DNA of 64,000 bases from Agilicoccus flavus (GTDB lineage Bacteria; Actinomycetota; Actinomycetes; Actinomycetales; Dermatophilaceae). Within the stretch, counting starts at the first letter, position 1; every line of letters begins with the position of its first letter. The notes under the pieces were generated by a model. The model ran no database searches. It was not told the origin of the DNA and saw only the letters and a list, made by a program, of their open reading frames with translations. Made by a program: the position numbers and the translations under genes. The stretch spans positions 1 through 64,000 of the forward strand of contig NZ_JACYXE010000012.1 in the NCBI RefSeq assembly GCF_014857905.1. Reading direction: 5' to 3'. Below, one piece after another: positions 48,401 to 58,815 of the stretch.

Positions 48401-48425
48401 CATTTGTAAGGACAAATGATTGACA
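48401..48425 (+). promoter_or_regulatory. IolR-type operator and -35 box for the iolD operon
   Basis: CATTTGT (48401-48407), AAGG, ACAAATG (48412-48418) is a perfect 7-bp inverted repeat that contains TGTAAGGACA (48405-48414), the complement of TGTCCTTACA. A TTGACA -35 box (48420-48425) follows immediately. The geometry fits a repressor that blocks RNA polymerase at the transaldolase-iolD operon. Related motifs precede the three other inositol units. Confidence 0.65.
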
Positions 48426-48522: not shown

Positions 48523-49608
48523 ATGACCGCCACCGTCACCACCAGCCCGCTGCGCACGATGACCGAGACGACGCCGACCGTGCTGTGGAACGACTCGGCC
48601 GACCCGAAGGAGCTCGAGACGTCCATCGGGTTCGGGGCCGTCGGGGCGACGTGCAACCCGGTCATCGCGCTGGCCTGCATCAAGGCCGACCTCCCGCGCT
48701 GGACGGCGCGCATCCGCGAGATCGCCGCCGAGAACCCCCGCGCCGGGGAGTCCGAGATCGGCTGGCAGGTCGTCGAGGAGGTCTCCGTCGACGCGGCCCG
48801 CCTCCTCACCCCCGCCTTCGAGACCTACGCCGGGGTCAACGGCCGCCTGTCGATGCAGACCGACCCGCGGCTGCACCGGGACGCCGACGCCCTCGTCGCC
48901 CAGGCGGAGCGCTTCGCGGCCCTCGCCGACAACATCATCGTCAAGATCCCCGCCACGTCGGTCGGGCTCGTCGCGATCGAGGAGGCCACCTACCGGGGTG
49001 TCTCGATCAACGTCACGGTCTCCTTCACCGTGGCCCAGGCGGTCGCCGCCGGCGAGGCCATCGAACGGGGCCTGCGCCGCCGCGAGGCCGACGGCAAGGC
49101 CGACGACGTGGCCCGGATGGGTCCGGTCGTCACCCTCATGTGCGGGCGGCTCGACGACTGGATGAAGGACAACTACGCCAAGGACAAGCTCTGCTTCGAC
49201 CCCGGCTACCTCGAGTGGGCCGGCGTCGCCGCGTTCAAGAAGGCCTACGCCGAGTTTCGGGCGCGCGGCCTGCGGGCGCGGATGCTGTCGGCCGCCTACC
49301 GCAACGCGCTGCAGTGGACGGAGTTCGTGGGCGGCGACGTCGTGCTCTCCCCGCCGTTCGCCTGGCAGCAGCGGTTCGAGAACAGCGGCATCGTCCCGGA
49401 GCCACGCATGGACATCCCCGTCGACCCGACGATGATCGAGGTCATGTACGAGCAGATGCCGGAGTTCCGCAAGGCCTACGACGTCGACGGCATGACCCCG
49501 GAGGAGTTCGACGACTTCGGCGCGACGCGCAAGACGCTGCGCCAGTTCCTCGAGGCCGACGCCCAGCTCGACGCCCTCGTGCGCGACGTCCTCGTCCCGG
49601 CCCCCTGA
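48523..49608 (+). CDS. Transaldolase family protein of the inositol operon
   Basis: A 361-residue (beta/alpha)8 aldolase-like enzyme. The VLWNDSADPKELETSIGFGA segment and NIIVKIPATSVGLVAIEEAT (with the Schiff-base Lys) identify the transaldolase family. It is the first gene of the iolD operon under an IolR-type operator, so its substrate is probably a cyclitol-derived sugar or its phosphate rather than sedoheptulose 7-phosphate. I chose the ATG at 48523, with GGAGG upstream. The exact reaction is not known from sequence. Confidence 0.8.
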   Translation: MTATVTTSPLRTMTETTPTVLWNDSADPKELETSIGFGAVGATCNPVIALACIKADLPRWTARIREIAAENPRAGESEIGWQVVEEVSVDAARLLTPAFETYAGVNGRLSMQTDPRLHRDADALVAQAERFAALADNIIVKIPATSVGLVAIEEATYRGVSINVTVSFTVAQAVAAGEAIERGLRRREADGKADDVARMGPVVTLMCGRLDDWMKDNYAKDKLCFDPGYLEWAGVAAFKKAYAEFRARGLRARMLSAAYRNALQWTEFVGGDVVLSPPFAWQQRFENSGIVPEPRMDIPVDPTMIEVMYEQMPEFRKAYDVDGMTPEEFDDFGATRKTLRQFLEADAQLDALVRDVLVPAP

Positions 49609-49681
49609 CCGGCGCACCGGTCCGACGACCCAGACCACCCCGACCACTCCGATCGCGGATCCCCTCGCGGAAGGATCGACG

Positions 49682-51631
49682 ATGACGTCGCAGCAGTCCT
49701 CCACCGTCCGACTCACCGTGGCCCAGGCGCTCGTGCGCTTCCTCGCCGCCCAGTACTCCGAGCGGGACGGGCGTGAACAACGCCTGATCCCGGGGATGTT
49801 CGGCATCTTCGGCCACGGCAACGTCGCCGGGGTGGGGCAGGCCCTCCTCCAGGCGCAGGTCCAGGCGGAGGAGGCCGGCGGCGGTCACAGCGTGACGCAG
49901 CGCCCGGTCACCGACCCCGCCGACGGCGAGCTGCCGTACTACATGGCGCGCAACGAGCAGGGCGCGGTCAACGCGGCGGCGGCGTTCGCGAAGACGACGA
50001 ACCGGCTGCAGGCCCTCGCCGTCACCGCGTCGATCGGCCCGGGGTCGACGAACATGATCACGGGCGCGGCGCTCGCGACGACGAACCGGCTTCCGGTGCT
50101 CGTGCTCCCGAGCGACATCTTCGCGACGCGCCACCCCGACCCCGTGCTCCAGCAGCTCGAGGACCCCCGCTGCCTCGACATCTCCGTCAACGACGCCTTC
50201 AAGCCGGTGTCGCGGTTCTGGGACCGGATCAACCGGCCCGAGCAGCTGATCCCCAGCGCGCTCGCGGCGATGCGGGTGCTCGCCGACCCGGCCGAGACCG
50301 GCGCGGTGACGATCTGCCTGCCGCAGGACGTGCAGGCGGAGGCCTACGACTGGCCGGTCGAGTTCTTCCGCAAGCGGGTCTGGCACGTGGCCCGGCCGGT
50401 GCCCGAGCCGGCCGCGTTGCAGCGCGCCGTCGAGGCGATCCGCTCGGCGAAGCGCCCGCTGCTCGTCGCCGGCGGCGGCGTGATCTACTCCGAGGCCTCG
50501 GAGGCGCTGCGGGCCTTCGCCTCGGCGACGGGGATCCCCGTCGCCGACACCCAGGCCGGCAAGGGGGCGATCAACTGGGACCACGAGTGCGCCGTCGGCG
50601 GCGTCGGTTCCACGGGAAACACCGCCGCGAACACCCTGGCCCGGGAGGCCGACCTCGTCATCGGTGTCGGCACGCGGTACAGCGACTTCACGACGGCGAG
50701 CCACACGATCTTCGCGAACCCCGACGTGCGGTTCGTCAACGTCAACGTGCTCGCCTTCGACGCCGCCAAGCACGCGGCGACCATGGTCGTCGCCGACGCC
50801 CGCGAGGGCCTCGAGGCGCTCGGCGCCGCGCTCGGCGGGTACGAGGTCGAGGCGGGCTACACCGAGCGGGCCCAGGAGCTCGACGCCGAGTGGCAGCGGG
50901 TCGTCGACGAGTGCTACGGCCGCGACCACACCCCCCTGCCGGCCCAGACGGAGGTGTTCGGCGCCCTCAACGAGCTCATGGGCGAGCGGGACGTCGTCAT
51001 CAACGCGGCCGGCTCCATGCCCGGCGACCTGCAGTGCCTGTGGCGGGCGCGCACCCCCGAGCAGTACCACCTCGAGTACGCCTTCTCGTGCATGGGTTAC
51101 GAGATCCCGGCCGCGATGGGTGTGCGCATGGCCAAGGGCGAGGAGGGGCAGGTCGTCGCGATCGTCGGCGACGGCACCTACCAGATGCTGCCGATGGAGC
51201 TCGCGACGATCGTCGCGGAGAACCTCAAGGTCATCGTCGTGCTCCTGCAGAACCACGGGTACGCCTCGATCGGCGCGCTGAGCGAGTCCCGCGGCAGTCA
51301 GCGCTTCGGCACCCGGTACCGGATGCGCAACGCGGCGACGGGTCGCCTCGACGGCGAGGAGGTGCCCTTCGACCTCGCCGCGAACGCCGCGAGCTGGGGG
51401 GCCGACGTGCTCCGCTGCGACGGCATCGCGGCGTTCCGCGAGAACTACGCGGTGGCCGCCGCGAGCGACCGCCCGACCGTGCTCTACATCGAGACCGACC
51501 TCTACGGGCCGAACCCGCCCGGCTCGGCCTGGTGGGACGTCCCGGTCTCGGCCGTCAGCGACCTCGACAGCACGCGGCAGGCGAGCAAGGAGTACGAGGA
51601 GGAGAAGGCGGCCCAGCGCCCCTACCTGTGA
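49682..51631 (+). CDS. iolD: 3D-(3,5/4)-trihydroxycyclohexane-1,2-dione hydrolase (IolD)
   Basis: A thiamine-diphosphate enzyme that opens the cyclitol ring of the dione to 5-deoxy-D-glucuronate. The 649 residues have the acetolactate-synthase-like layout: N-terminal pyrimidine domain with RNEQGAVNAAAAFAKTTNRL, central domain, and C-terminal domain with the ThDP motif GDGTYQMLPMELATIVAENL leading to LLQNHGYASIGALSESRG. It lies 73 bases after the transaldolase gene. A parS-like sequence lies in its coding region at 50606-50621. Confidence 0.93.
   Translation: MTSQQSSTVRLTVAQALVRFLAAQYSERDGREQRLIPGMFGIFGHGNVAGVGQALLQAQVQAEEAGGGHSVTQRPVTDPADGELPYYMARNEQGAVNAAAAFAKTTNRLQALAVTASIGPGSTNMITGAALATTNRLPVLVLPSDIFATRHPDPVLQQLEDPRCLDISVNDAFKPVSRFWDRINRPEQLIPSALAAMRVLADPAETGAVTICLPQDVQAEAYDWPVEFFRKRVWHVARPVPEPAALQRAVEAIRSAKRPLLVAGGGVIYSEASEALRAFASATGIPVADTQAGKGAINWDHECAVGGVGSTGNTAANTLAREADLVIGVGTRYSDFTTASHTIFANPDVRFVNVNVLAFDAAKHAATMVVADAREGLEALGAALGGYEVEAGYTERAQELDAEWQRVVDECYGRDHTPLPAQTEVFGALNELMGERDVVINAAGSMPGDLQCLWRARTPEQYHLEYAFSCMGYEIPAAMGVRMAKGEEGQVVAIVGDGTYQMLPMELATIVAENLKVIVVLLQNHGYASIGALSESRGSQRFGTRYRMRNAATGRLDGEEVPFDLAANAASWGADVLRCDGIAAFRENYAVAAASDRPTVLYIETDLYGPNPPGSAWWDVPVSAVSDLDSTRQASKEYEEEKAAQRPYL
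50606..50621. promoter_or_regulatory. parS: parS-like site inside iolD
   Basis: GGTTCCACGGGAAACA, three mismatches from consensus, about 24 kb from parB. Actinobacteria often carry extra parS sites spread around the origin, some within genes. Confidence 0.5.
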
Positions 51632-51730
51632 GCGCGCCTCGGGGTGGGGGGCCCTCGCAGAGTCTCCCGGCCCGGGGTACCCGTCGGTAGCGTCGCCGTG
51701 TTCGTCCGTCTCCGAGGGAAGAGTGCAGCC

Positions 51731-52606
51731 ATGAGTGCCACCAAGGTCGTCGTCGTCACCGGGGCCGGGTCGATGGGCGTGATGATCGCCCGCCGGGTCG
51801 GGCAGGGACGCACCCTGCTGTTCGCGGACATCGACCCGGACACCCTCGCCGCGGTGCAGGGTCGGCTGAGCGACGAGGGCTACGACGTCGCGACGCGCGT
51901 CGTCGACACCTCGGACCACGACTCGGTGCGCGATCTCGCCCGGGCCGCCGCCGAGCTCGGCGACGTCGAGGTCGTCGTCCACACCGCGGGGGTCTCGCCG
52001 AACATGGCCGACCCGGCGACGATCGCCGCCGTCGACCTCGCGGGCACCGCCTTCGTGCTCGAGGAGTTCGGCGCGATCATCGCCGACGGTGGCGCCGGCC
52101 TCGTCATCTCCAGCCAGGCGGCCCACATGAGCGGGCCGCTGCCCGACGACGTGGCCCGGTCCCTGGCCCACGACCCCAGCGACGCGCTCGTCGACCTGCC
52201 GGTCGTCGCGGCGCTGGAGGACTCCGGCGCCGCCTACGTCCTCGCCAAGCTCGGCAACAACCTCCGGGTCCAGGCCCAGTCCGTGCTCTGGGGCGATCGC
52301 GGGGCCCGGCTGAACTCCCTCAGCCCCGGCATCATCAGCACGCCGCTCGCGCAGCACGAGCTGAGCAGCCCCGACGCCGCCGGCGACCGGGACATGCTCG
52401 AGAACTGCGCGGCCGGGCGGATGGGCACCCCGACCGAGGTCGCGGAGATCGCGGCCCTCCTGCTCGGCCCGAACGGCCGCTACTTCAGCGGCTCCGACCT
52501 GCTCATCGACGGCGGCGTCATCGCCGGGATGCGGGCCGGGCGGATCGGCGCCTACCGATCCGACGACGAGGCGGACGCCGCCGGCGCGACGGGGGAGGAC
52601 GCATGA
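51731..52606 (+). CDS. SDR-family oxidoreductase in the iolD operon
   Basis: A 291-residue NAD(P)-dependent short-chain dehydrogenase. The nucleotide motif is atypical, VTGAGSMGVMIARRVG, and the catalytic pattern is ISSQAAH with YVLAK. A roughly 35-residue insert (about PLPDDVARSLAHDPSDALVD) precedes the Tyr. The substrate is not evident; a cyclitol or keto-sugar is suggested by the operon. I chose the ATG at 51731. The end overlaps the next gene as ATGA. A TAGCGT box at 51688-51693 could be an internal promoter. Confidence 0.82.
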   Translation: MSATKVVVVTGAGSMGVMIARRVGQGRTLLFADIDPDTLAAVQGRLSDEGYDVATRVVDTSDHDSVRDLARAAAELGDVEVVVHTAGVSPNMADPATIAAVDLAGTAFVLEEFGAIIADGGAGLVISSQAAHMSGPLPDDVARSLAHDPSDALVDLPVVAALEDSGAAYVLAKLGNNLRVQAQSVLWGDRGARLNSLSPGIISTPLAQHELSSPDAAGDRDMLENCAAGRMGTPTEVAEIAALLLGPNGRYFSGSDLLIDGGVIAGMRAGRIGAYRSDDEADAAGATGEDA

Positions 52607-52980
52607 CGGATCGCGGGGCGGGCGAGGCCGGCGTGCTCGCGAACTGGGCGGATCAGTTGCGCGCGATGGACGCCGCCGACACCGAGGCGCTGGCGGCCCT
52701 GTTCACCCCCGACGCGACCCTCGTGCACATGACCGGCCACGTGCAGCCGCTCGAGGCGTGGACGGCGGGCATCCGGGCGCGCGAGTTCGTCTACCACCGT
52801 GTCGTCGAACACGGGGTGGACGTCGAGGTCGAGGGCGACACGGCGCGGCTCGTCGGCCGCATCGTCACCGGGGTCACCGACGACGGCAGCGGGCAGGCCT
52901 GGCCGCTGCGCGTCGAGCAGGACCTCGTCCGGTCGGGATCGGCCTGGCTGTGCCGGCAGTCACGCGTCACCCTCGCGTGA
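52603..52980 (+). CDS. NTF2/SnoaL-like small protein
   Basis: A 125-residue protein of the cone-shaped NTF2-like fold: WADQLRAMDAADTEALAALF followed by TPDATLVHMTGHVQPL, ending RVEQDLVRSGSAWLCRQSRV. Members include isomerases, dehydratases and non-catalytic binding proteins. It overlaps the SDR gene by 4 bases, so the two are translationally coupled and probably act on the same compound. No substrate can be deduced. Confidence 0.75.
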   Translation: MTDRGAGEAGVLANWADQLRAMDAADTEALAALFTPDATLVHMTGHVQPLEAWTAGIRAREFVYHRVVEHGVDVEVEGDTARLVGRIVTGVTDDGSGQAWPLRVEQDLVRSGSAWLCRQSRVTLA

Positions 52981-53002
52981 GGCCGTCGCGCGAGGCGGGG
53001 TC

Positions 53003-53827
53003 GTGGCGGTGAGCCTCGACCTCGGGGTGGGGCCGACCGACTGGCTCGTCCTCGCGCTCGGCGCGGCGATCGCCGGGTTCAGCAAGACGGCGATCGGCGG
53101 CGCCGCGACCGTCGCGGTGGCCCTCTTCGCCCTGCTGCTGCCGACCCGCGAGTCGACGGGCGTGCTTCTCGTGCTCCTCATGGTCGGCGACCTCATCGCC
53201 GTGTGGACGTACCGCCGGGAGGCGAACTGGGCCCTGCTCGGTCGGCTCGTCGTGCCCGTGATCGTGGGCATCGCCTCCGGGGGCGTCTTCCTCGCCCGGG
53301 TGCCGGCGGACCGGATGGGCCCGGTCATCGGGTCCATCGTCGTCGCGATGTGCGTCATCGAGATCGTCCGGCGCGCCCGCGACGGGCTGCGGGCGCGCCG
53401 GTCGGATCACGGGGCCGGCGCCGCGGCCGAGCCGTCCGGCGCGGCGAGCCCGCCCGCCCCCGCGCCGGCCCGGGCCCGGGCCGGCGGCGCGTTCTTCGGC
53501 TCCCTCGCGGGATTCACGACGATGGTGGCCAACGCCGGCGGCCCCGTCATGTCGCTGTACCTGTTGCGGTCGCGCCTGCCGGTGACGCGGTTCGTCGGGA
53601 CGTTCGCCTGGTTCTTCTTCTCCGTCAACCTCATGAAACTGCCCGTGAGCGTCGGACTCGGGCTGGTCCGGCCGACGCGGTTCGGGCTCATCCTGTCCCT
53701 CGTCCCGGCCGTGGTGGCGGGGGCCTGGTTCGGTCGGCTCCTCATCGGCCGCATCCCCCGGGTCGCGTTCGAGTGGACGATCCTGCTCGTCGCGCTCGCG
53801 TCGGGGCTCTACCTGGCGCTGGGGTGA
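53003..53827 (+). CDS. TauE/SafE family membrane transporter
   Basis: A 274-residue membrane protein with about eight helices and the family pattern LGAAIAGFSKTAIGGAATVA near the start and GFTTMVANAGGPVMSLYLL in the middle. TauE/SafE proteins are thought to export sulfite, sulfoacetate or other small organic anions. Starts at the GTGs at 53003 and 53009 are both possible. It lies 22 bases after the NTF2-like gene, in the same operon, and may export an acidic by-product of this pathway; that is inference. Confidence 0.82.
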   Translation: MAVSLDLGVGPTDWLVLALGAAIAGFSKTAIGGAATVAVALFALLLPTRESTGVLLVLLMVGDLIAVWTYRREANWALLGRLVVPVIVGIASGGVFLARVPADRMGPVIGSIVVAMCVIEIVRRARDGLRARRSDHGAGAAAEPSGAASPPAPAPARARAGGAFFGSLAGFTTMVANAGGPVMSLYLLRSRLPVTRFVGTFAWFFFSVNLMKLPVSVGLGLVRPTRFGLILSLVPAVVAGAWFGRLLIGRIPRVAFEWTILLVALASGLYLALG

Positions 53828-53933
53828 CCCACGCGCGCACCGGCGCGGCCTCATGCTGGTCCGGGACGCCGCGCGCGTCCGCCGCCCGAACCGGACCGGC
53901 TCGGGCCGCCCGTCGACCGACCAGGGAGCCCCG

Positions 53934-54941
53934 ATGACCGACGCGACCCCCCTCACCGCCCAACAGTCCATCTCCACGTGGCTGGCCCACCCCGCGGGGG
54001 GCCCGGCCCTGCGCGAGTTCCTCGCGGGCTCGGGCACCAACGAGAGCGCGCTCGGCCCGGCCCTGTCGATGCCGTTGCAGCAGCTCGTCGAGCTCAGCGG
54101 GGGCGCCCTGCCGCAGAGCGTCGTCGACGACATGGTGCGAGCCGTCAACAGCGGGATCATCCCCGAGCCCGACGAGGCGACGTGGCGGGAGCGGATCACT
54201 CCGGGCCGGTTCGACGGGCGCACGATCGTCGTCACGGGCGCCGCGTCGGGGATCGGCCGCGCGGTGGCGCGCCGGGTGGCCGCCGAGGGTGGCCGCGTCG
54301 TCGCCGTCGACATCTCGGCCGAGAAGCTCGCCGCCCTGTCCGAGGACCTCGGCAATCGGGTCGTCACCGTCGCCGCCGACCTCACGCGGGCGGAGGCCGT
54401 ACAGAACGTGCTCGCCGCGGCGGGCGAACGCGTCGACGGCCTCGCGAACGTCGCCGGCATCAACGACGACTTCAGCCCGCTGCACGAGGTGAGCGACGAG
54501 ATGTGGGCGCGCGTCTTCGCGGTCAACGTGGACGCGCTCGTCCGGTTGTCCCGGGGCGTGCTCGGTCTGATGCTGCCCGCGGGGCGGGGCTCGATCGTCA
54601 ACGTCACCTCCGAGGCCGGCCTGCGCGGATCGGCGTCGGGAGTGGCCTACACGGCCTCCAAGCACGCGGTCATCGGAATCACCCGCAGCGCGGCGTTCAT
54701 GTACGCGCGGGAGGGGATCCGCGTCAACGCGGTCGCGCCGGGCGGGGTCGCGACCGGGATCCCGATGCAGGGCACGACGTCCGCCTACGGCGAGGAGCGC
54801 CTCCGGCCGGCCCGCGCGATCATGCCGAGCATCGCCGACTCCGCGCACCTGGCCGCGTCGATCACGTTCCTGCTCAGCGACGACGGGATCAACGTCAACG
54901 GCGCGATCCTGCCCTCCGACGGCGGGTGGTCGGCGGCCTGA
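53934..54941 (+). CDS. SDR oxidoreductase with extra N-terminal domain
   Basis: A 335-residue protein. Residues from about 96 are a classical short-chain dehydrogenase: IVVTGAASGIGRAVARRVAA (TGxxxGIG), a NVAGIN segment, NVTSEAG and YTASK catalytic residues, with the end GINVNGAILPSDGGWSAA. The first 95 residues (QQSISTWLAHPAGGPALREF through VVDDMVRAVNSG) form an extra domain that resembles, from memory, the C-terminal segment of some actinobacterial GH3 beta-glucosidases. I chose the ATG at 53934. It lies 106 bases after the TauE gene and ends the operon. The substrate is unknown. Confidence 0.82.
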   Translation: MTDATPLTAQQSISTWLAHPAGGPALREFLAGSGTNESALGPALSMPLQQLVELSGGALPQSVVDDMVRAVNSGIIPEPDEATWRERITPGRFDGRTIVVTGAASGIGRAVARRVAAEGGRVVAVDISAEKLAALSEDLGNRVVTVAADLTRAEAVQNVLAAAGERVDGLANVAGINDDFSPLHEVSDEMWARVFAVNVDALVRLSRGVLGLMLPAGRGSIVNVTSEAGLRGSASGVAYTASKHAVIGITRSAAFMYAREGIRVNAVAPGGVATGIPMQGTTSAYGEERLRPARAIMPSIADSAHLAASITFLLSDDGINVNGAILPSDGGWSAA

Positions 54942-57966: not shown

Positions 57967-58084
57967 TCACCGCTCGGTTCTCTTTGTCGCGTTCGGCGGT
58001 GCTCGCAAGCTCGCCCCACCTCACCGCTCGGTTCTTTCTGTCGCGTTCGGCGGTGCTCGCAAGCTCGCCCCACCTCACCGCTCG
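57967..58084. repeat. 54-bp tandem repeat between convergent genes
   Basis: Two consecutive 54-base units (57967-58020 and 58021-58074) differ at only two positions, and a third partial copy (58075-58084) overlaps the GntR stop codon. Each unit contains an imperfect hairpin, GGCGGTGCT, CGCA, AGCTCGCC. The repeat may act as a double terminator for the convergent iolH and gntR transcripts; it appears to have arisen by duplication of the gntR 3' end. Confidence 0.85.
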
Positions 58085-58815
58085 TGCACGGTGATGTCGA
58101 AGGCGTACAGGTCCGCCCGGTAGCAGTGGTCCCCGAACTCGACGGGCCGGCCGTCGGCGTCGTAGGCGTGGCGGGACATCGTCAGCAGCGGCTGGGACGT
58201 GCCCATCCCGAGAAGGCGGCGCTCGCGGCCGGTGGCGCTGCGGGCGCCGATGGTCTGGTGCGCGACGACCGGGCGCACGCTGCGCTGGTGGAGCAGGTTG
58301 TAGAGGCCGTCGGACTCGAGGTCGGCCCGGGTGAGGTCGGCGAACTGCGGCGGCAGCCAGTTGGCGAGGATCGCCAGCGGCTCGTCGCCGGCGAAGCGCA
58401 GCCGCTCCACGAACACGAGCGGCGTCTCGGGCGGCACCTGCAGGGCGCCGGCGGCCGGCTCGTCCACGCAGTTCGCATCGAGGGTGAGCACCTCGGTCCG
58501 GGGCGAGCGCCCCGCCCGCGCGAGATCGTCGTGGAGGCTCGTCAGCTCGTCGCGGCGGTGCACCACGCTGTTCGCCACCGTCGTGCCGATGCCGCGGCGG
58601 CGCACGAGCAGACCCTGGACGACGAGCTCGGAGATCGCGCGCCGGACCGTGGGCCGCGACAGCCCGAGACGCTCCGCGAGCGACAGCTCGTTCTCGAACG
58701 GGTCACCCGGGCGCAGCCGGCCGTCGGAGATCGCGGCCGTCATCTGCTCCGAGAGCTGGTGATAGAGCGGCACCGGGCTGTTGCGGTCGATCGTCACCTC
58801 GAGTTGCGCCACCAT
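58075..58815 (-). CDS. iolR: GntR/HutC-family repressor, IolR candidate
   Basis: A 246-residue regulator. The winged HTH (PLYHQLSEQMTAAISDGRLR, LAERLGLSRPTVRRAISELV) is followed by a UTRA ligand domain (TPLVFVERLRFAGDEPLAIL, ending VEFGDHCYRADLYAFDITVH). It is divergent from iolC, and a TGTCCTAACA operator lies 47 bases upstream of its start, overlapping its probable -35. The same motif, in variants, precedes all inositol units, so this is the likely regulon repressor with autoregulation. C. glutamicum IolR is also a GntR protein with a similar site. I chose the ATG at 58815 with TGAGGTG before it. Confidence 0.85.
   Translation of the reverse strand: MVAQLEVTIDRNSPVPLYHQLSEQMTAAISDGRLRPGDPFENELSLAERLGLSRPTVRRAISELVVQGLLVRRRGIGTTVANSVVHRRDELTSLHDDLARAGRSPRTEVLTLDANCVDEPAAGALQVPPETPLVFVERLRFAGDEPLAILANWLPPQFADLTRADLESDGLYNLLHQRSVRPVVAHQTIGARSATGRERRLLGMGTSQPLLTMSRHAYDADGRPVEFGDHCYRADLYAFDITVHER

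Follow-up and report, generated by a model that had tools for sequence, protein, structure and literature searches.

A conserved TAL-iolD-TauE block in the myo-inositol locus of Agilicoccus flavus, most likely joined by broad alcohol/ketone oxidoreductase genes

Introduction

The closest described counterpart of the inositol locus of Agilicoccus flavus is the iol1 cluster of Corynebacterium glutamicum (PMC9603128), with which it shares iolD, iolC, iolB, iolE, several genes for Gfo/Idh dehydrogenases, an iolT-type transporter and a Cgl0159-type protein (PF22649). In C. glutamicum, inositol stereoisomers are used via several paralogous inositol dehydrogenases (PMC9603128). The A. flavus locus differs from iol1 by a transaldolase-family gene (TAL) and a gene for a TauE/SafE-family protein (TauE) beside iolD, and by two genes for short-chain dehydrogenases, one paired with a gene for an NTF2-like protein (SDR1-NTF2) and one alone (SDR2). 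The C. glutamicum iol cluster is not known to contain TAL or TauE. The original prediction had treated the SDR, NTF2 and TauE genes as one module and as a candidate new pathway. Here we compare each gene with its relatives across the family and the order.

Results

The six genes form a compact run in a myo-inositol locus

We analysed a window of 64,000 nucleotides, which is part of contig C3 of the 4.23-Mb genome. A myo-inositol catabolic locus is defined as at least three of iolB, iolC, iolD and iolE in one cluster (PMC9430895), and such a cluster is found here. iolD was called with TIGR04377 and iolB as a member of the KduI/IolB family, while iolC (PfkB-type) and iolE (AP_endonuc_2) were called from sequence together with position. 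The cluster also holds four Gfo/Idh-type dehydrogenase genes and TIM-barrel genes, and the locus does not end with the window: up to about 75 kb it includes more Gfo/Idh genes, genes for an iolT-type MFS transporter and those of a sugar ABC transporter.

As originally predicted, TAL, iolD, SDR1, NTF2, TauE and SDR2 lie side by side on one strand, in this order and all intact, with successive intergenic distances of 73, 99, -4, 22 and 106 nt (Table 1). The two SDRs are indeed dissimilar (24% identity), NTF2 begins over the stop codon of SDR1 in a 4-nt overlap (ATGA), and none of the accompanying genes belongs to the textbook iolABCDEGJ pathway.

Table 1. Coordinates of the genes and putative control sites, numbered from the first nucleotide of the window.
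Feature	Position	Strand	Evidence or remark
Operator-like perfect inverted repeat CATTTGT-N4-ACAAATG	48401..48418	.	just 5' of TTGACA
TAL, transaldolase-family protein	48523..49608	+	PF00923; alignment with solved transaldolases covers the IVKIPAT lysine and TCNP motif
iolD, trihydroxycyclohexane-1,2-dione acylhydrolase	49682..51631	+	TIGR04377, 880 bits vs cut-off 715
TACC-CGTC-GGTA palindrome upstream of SDR1	51678..51689	.	putative independent regulatory site
SDR1, PRK06940-type short-chain dehydrogenase	51731..52606	+	NF005395/PRK06940, 338.7 bits vs cut-off 280
NTF2/SnoaL-like protein	52603..52980	+	PF14534 DUF4440, PF13577 SnoaL_4
TauE/SafE-family permease, GTG start	53003..53827	+	PF01925, 105.6 bits vs gathering cut-off 32.6
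SDR2, classical SDR with N-terminal extension	53934..54941	+	PF00106/PF13561
GntR/UTRA regulator (IolR-like)	58075..58812	-	

TAL and TauE are long-standing neighbours of iolD

We searched 100 family genomes for homologues of these genes and then compared gene coordinates. TAL homologues scoring above 400 bits were found in 23 other genomes of this set; wherever iolD was on the same contig, TAL lay within 11 kb of it (22 of 22 cases), and in 18 of the 23 genomes it directly preceded iolD on the same strand. For TauE the comparison took in homologues from 44 other genomes, 31 of which have iolD on the same contig; 29 of these 31 place the two genes within 50 kb of each other, and TauE directly follows iolD on the same strand in nine genomes. 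Direct reading of eight iolD neighbourhoods from relatives revealed TAL adjacent to iolD in all eight and TauE directly after it in seven (for one of the genomes, G055, by coordinates). Both linkages are seen on megabase contigs and short ones alike. From these comparisons, TAL and TauE are long-standing, conserved members of the family's inositol locus.

TAL passes the gathering cut-off of the TAL_FSA superfamily and matches PF00923 with 123.9 bits. It aligns with solved transaldolases (3r5e and others) over the catalytic barrel region, keeping both the Schiff-base lysine motif and the TCNP motif, and is thus probably a class I (Schiff-base) aldolase or transaldolase. Unlike true transaldolases (EC 2.2.1.2), it falls far below the equivalog cut-offs (best 106 vs 367 bits), and a separate paralogue is encoded elsewhere in the genome, on contig C33. 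We also considered TAL as a stand-in for the Cgl0159-type protein, which is unlikely because both co-occur in loci L059, L060, L064 and L066. TauE is putatively a permease, by family only. A literature search for iolD together with TauE, a transaldolase or an SDR returned nothing relevant.

TauE-family proteins export sulfite or organosulfonates. This general property, together with the presence of a BmSF-TAL entry (8bc3) among the remoter solved structures related to TAL, would suit a sulfo-sugar route within the inositol locus in which a sulfo-transaldolase-like TAL acts and TauE exports a sulfonate. TAL is nearer, however, to an ordinary actinobacterial transaldolase (76.6 bits for 3r5e vs about 35 for 8bc3), it is tied to iolD, and the neighbourhoods that were read contain no recognisable sulfo-sugar gene, so that we regard such a route as very improbable. 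A different proposal is that TAL, iolD and TauE make up a conserved branch of inositol catabolism in actinobacteria that has gone unrecognised. There TAL, as a transaldolase-type aldolase, would use a keto acid or sugar phosphate derived from inositol, TauE would release acidic overflow, and SDR1-NTF2 would be a lineage-specific extension; we put this forward tentatively, as a possibility with the greater chance against it.

SDR1-NTF2 sits between iolD and TauE in this window only

SDR1 has intact glycine-rich, S and YxxxK motifs and, by score and catalytic motif, is a member of NF005395/PRK06940, a family without assigned function. Members of this family usually adjoin neither iolD nor an NTF2 protein, unlike SDR1 here. 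The arrangement iolD-SDR1-NTF2-TauE was found in this window only, and neither SDR1 nor NTF2 stands beside iolD or TauE in any of the eight neighbourhoods of relatives. Because TauE follows iolD in seven of these eight, the pair looks inserted between the two genes. Across 188 genomes of the family the NTF2-SDR1 pair occurs in two, namely the A. flavus genome and G006. In the latter the pair is carried by a 13.9-kb contig, separately from iolD, and a gene sharing 81% identity with the A. flavus iolT lies about 4 kb away; this gives a hint, from a single genome, of a link to inositol.

Across the order, 21 of 396 genomes carry SDR1, counting that of A. flavus. The neighbourhoods of SDR1 elsewhere show either a lone gene or a P450-ferredoxin(-reductase)-SDR1 cluster, and no iol genes were seen around it in the neighbourhoods read (3 of 20 were unresolved by the gene caller). 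Plasmid-borne relatives, with about 39-52% identity, are accompanied by aldo/keto reductases, NAD(P)H-binding proteins and LysR/TetR regulators. The clusters with P450 and ferredoxin are those of L125, L126 and L127, and in two of them SDR1 and the ferredoxin reductase overlap by 4 nt. On contig C13 (L078, 2900-3738), the A. flavus genome has another gene resembling SDR1, with about 52% identity; it is split over two frames, by a frameshift or a sequencing error, and lies near a transposase fragment.

NTF2 has no clear relative among solved structures, and its single-sequence structural model is poor (pLDDT 46). Its relatives elsewhere adjoin SDR or aldo/keto reductase genes (L181 6924-8083, L182 6808-8333 and L180 7339-7737), with the same 4-nt overlap in L181. 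This pattern of neighbours fits a role for NTF2 as a general redox helper.

Full-length SDR2 orthologues lie in other families of the order

SDR2 keeps the SDR catalytic motifs, and its core matches solved structures along the entire SDR domain; cyclohexanol dehydrogenase and levodione reductase (4ure, 1iy8) are among the nearest of them. Unlike these enzymes, it bears an extra N-terminus of about 90 amino acids, with a domain of about 80 residues (window 53934-54200) that lies outside any Pfam model. The same domain also occurs at the C-termini of GH3 beta-glucosidases, after an Fn3-like domain (L183, L184, L185, L186, L187), and a search with it gave matches in 98 of the 396 genomes of the order.

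The best of these matches were full-length SDR2 orthologues (51-72% identity), found in seven other families of the order; among 100 genomes of its own family no full-length match was found besides SDR2 itself. Orthologues often adjoin TetR genes, and the neighbourhoods read contained no clear relatives of iolB, iolD or iolE. One orthologue (G181, L165) belongs to a sugar-type cluster with Gfo/Idh, kinase, TIM-barrel and ABC permease genes. In the eight neighbourhoods of relatives, neither iolD nor TauE has an orthologue of SDR2 next to it; L062 has a generic SDR, 29% like SDR2, about 1.2 kb past TauE.

The two SDR types do meet in one other genome. In G448 (L117, 8158-13934), SDR1 and an SDR2-type gene are separated by about 60-120 nt, depending on an uncertain start codon, and past a TetR gene that comes next to this pair lie genes for a PtlE-type Baeyer-Villiger monooxygenase (741 bits) and a beta-propeller protein. 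The proximity of SDR1 and the SDR2-type gene to a Baeyer-Villiger monooxygenase suggests oxidation of cyclic alcohols, and the cluster could possibly serve the degradation of alicyclic alcohols. Overall, the contexts of SDR1 and SDR2 in other genomes point to general redox chemistry of cyclic or secondary alcohols or of xenobiotics.

The operator and the question of a second promoter

The operator that had been predicted near 48405 is a perfect palindrome at 48401-48418, CATTTGTAAGGACAAATG, with a perfect 7-bp inverted repeat, and within 83 kb no second TTGT-N4-ACAA site occurs. Three relatives carry a similar site with 2-3 mismatches: one between iolR and iolC (L064 11875), one beside iolR (L059 16933) and one upstream of iolC (L066 7447). 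The A. flavus genome has another such site at 73043, upstream of the gene at 73245 and the iolT genes. The TAL-iolD-TauE block is probably controlled from this putative IolR-type operator.

Promoter and terminator prediction over the six genes revealed no clear division of the run and no outstanding terminator. One alternative reading is that SDR1, NTF2 and SDR2, possibly with TauE, have no role in inositol use and are transcribed under another regulator, from a promoter of their own around 51680; it appears distinctly unlikely to us. Such a promoter would fit the 99-nt gap after iolD, where the TACC-N4-GGTA palindrome might be a separate control site, the strong hairpins between iolD and TauE in all four relatives folded (z -1.8 to -4.7), and the frequent TetR neighbours of SDR2 orthologues. 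Against it, no sigma-70-type promoter was called near 51678-51689, no regulator gene adjoins the inserted SDR1-NTF2 or SDR2, and the palindrome is not rarer than chance, for which we estimate, from base composition, about 0.5 occurrences in 83 kb. In A. flavus, the 99-nt stretch behind iolD folds into a hairpin no better than shuffled sequence (z -0.37). In G055, the gap between iolD and TauE (L059 7899-8040) holds a hairpin of over 20 bp that is nearly perfect and rich in A+T, unusual for the GC content.

GC and GC3 of all six genes are normal and host-like, and no foreign codon usage or GC was found in the added genes. Given the common direction, the short gaps and the host-like GC and GC3, the six genes could form one adapted operon.

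The run is probably an assembly rather than one module

Of the module originally predicted, the association of TAL and TauE with the iol genes stands, while SDR1-NTF2 and SDR2 are separate, lineage-specific additions. The same five-gene set was found in no other genome (188 genomes of the family searched for NTF2, 396 of the order for SDR1 and NTF2). Since neither SDR1-NTF2 nor SDR2 was seen beside iolD in the neighbourhoods of relatives that were read, the five-gene set is not a conserved pathway. SDR1-NTF2 and SDR2 were probably added recently by horizontal acquisition, a case we draw from their distribution only.

These results bear on the reading first proposed. There, the substrates of the SDRs would be other inositol stereoisomers or O-methyl inositols, the oxidised product would be isomerised by NTF2, and an acidic by-product would leave the cell through TauE. 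The co-orientation of the genes, the SDR1/NTF2 overlap and the upstream IolR-type operator agree with it, as do the second NTF2-SDR1 pair near an iolT orthologue in G006 and the fact that cyclitols are cyclic secondary alcohols, on which, or on cyclic ketones, some of the nearest solved SDR2 relatives act. It has to contend, however, with a gene set seen in no other genome searched, with TAL and TauE being linked to iol genes where the SDRs are missing, and with the example of C. glutamicum, whose inositol dehydrogenases form a paralogue set of their own (PMC9603128), four Gfo/Idh-type genes being already present in the A. flavus cluster. A cyclitol role for the SDRs is possible but unsupported, and we consider this extension as a whole to be unlikely.

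Discussion

The explanation we favour, and hold to be reasonably probable, is that unrelated oxidoreductase genes have entered an actinobacterial myo-inositol locus at its TAL-iolD-TauE block, SDR1-NTF2 between iolD and TauE and SDR2 after TauE. Under this explanation TAL would be a lysine-dependent aldolase or transaldolase acting on a product of the inositol pathway, and TauE would export an anion that this pathway generates. Both SDRs would convert secondary alcohols into ketones and back, chiefly those of alicyclic or terpenoid type, and SDR1 would do so with NTF2 as its partner or isomerase-like helper. Induction of the SDRs by inositol would then be incidental, or would slightly widen the range of substrates. 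Most likely, an inositol operon captured broad alcohol/ketone oxidoreductases. Three observations weigh against this explanation: the common direction, short gaps and host-like GC and GC3 of the six genes, the iolT-like gene near the pair in G006, and the SDR2 orthologue among sugar-type genes in G181.

The tempting new pathway of SDR, NTF2, TauE and SDR is unsupported as a unit, and the better question is the role of TAL and TauE, for which we found no description in the literature searched and which are tied to iolD in many genomes of the family. These conserved genes merit attention above the SDRs: if their function is found, it would add an extra step to the inositol pathway of these actinobacteria.
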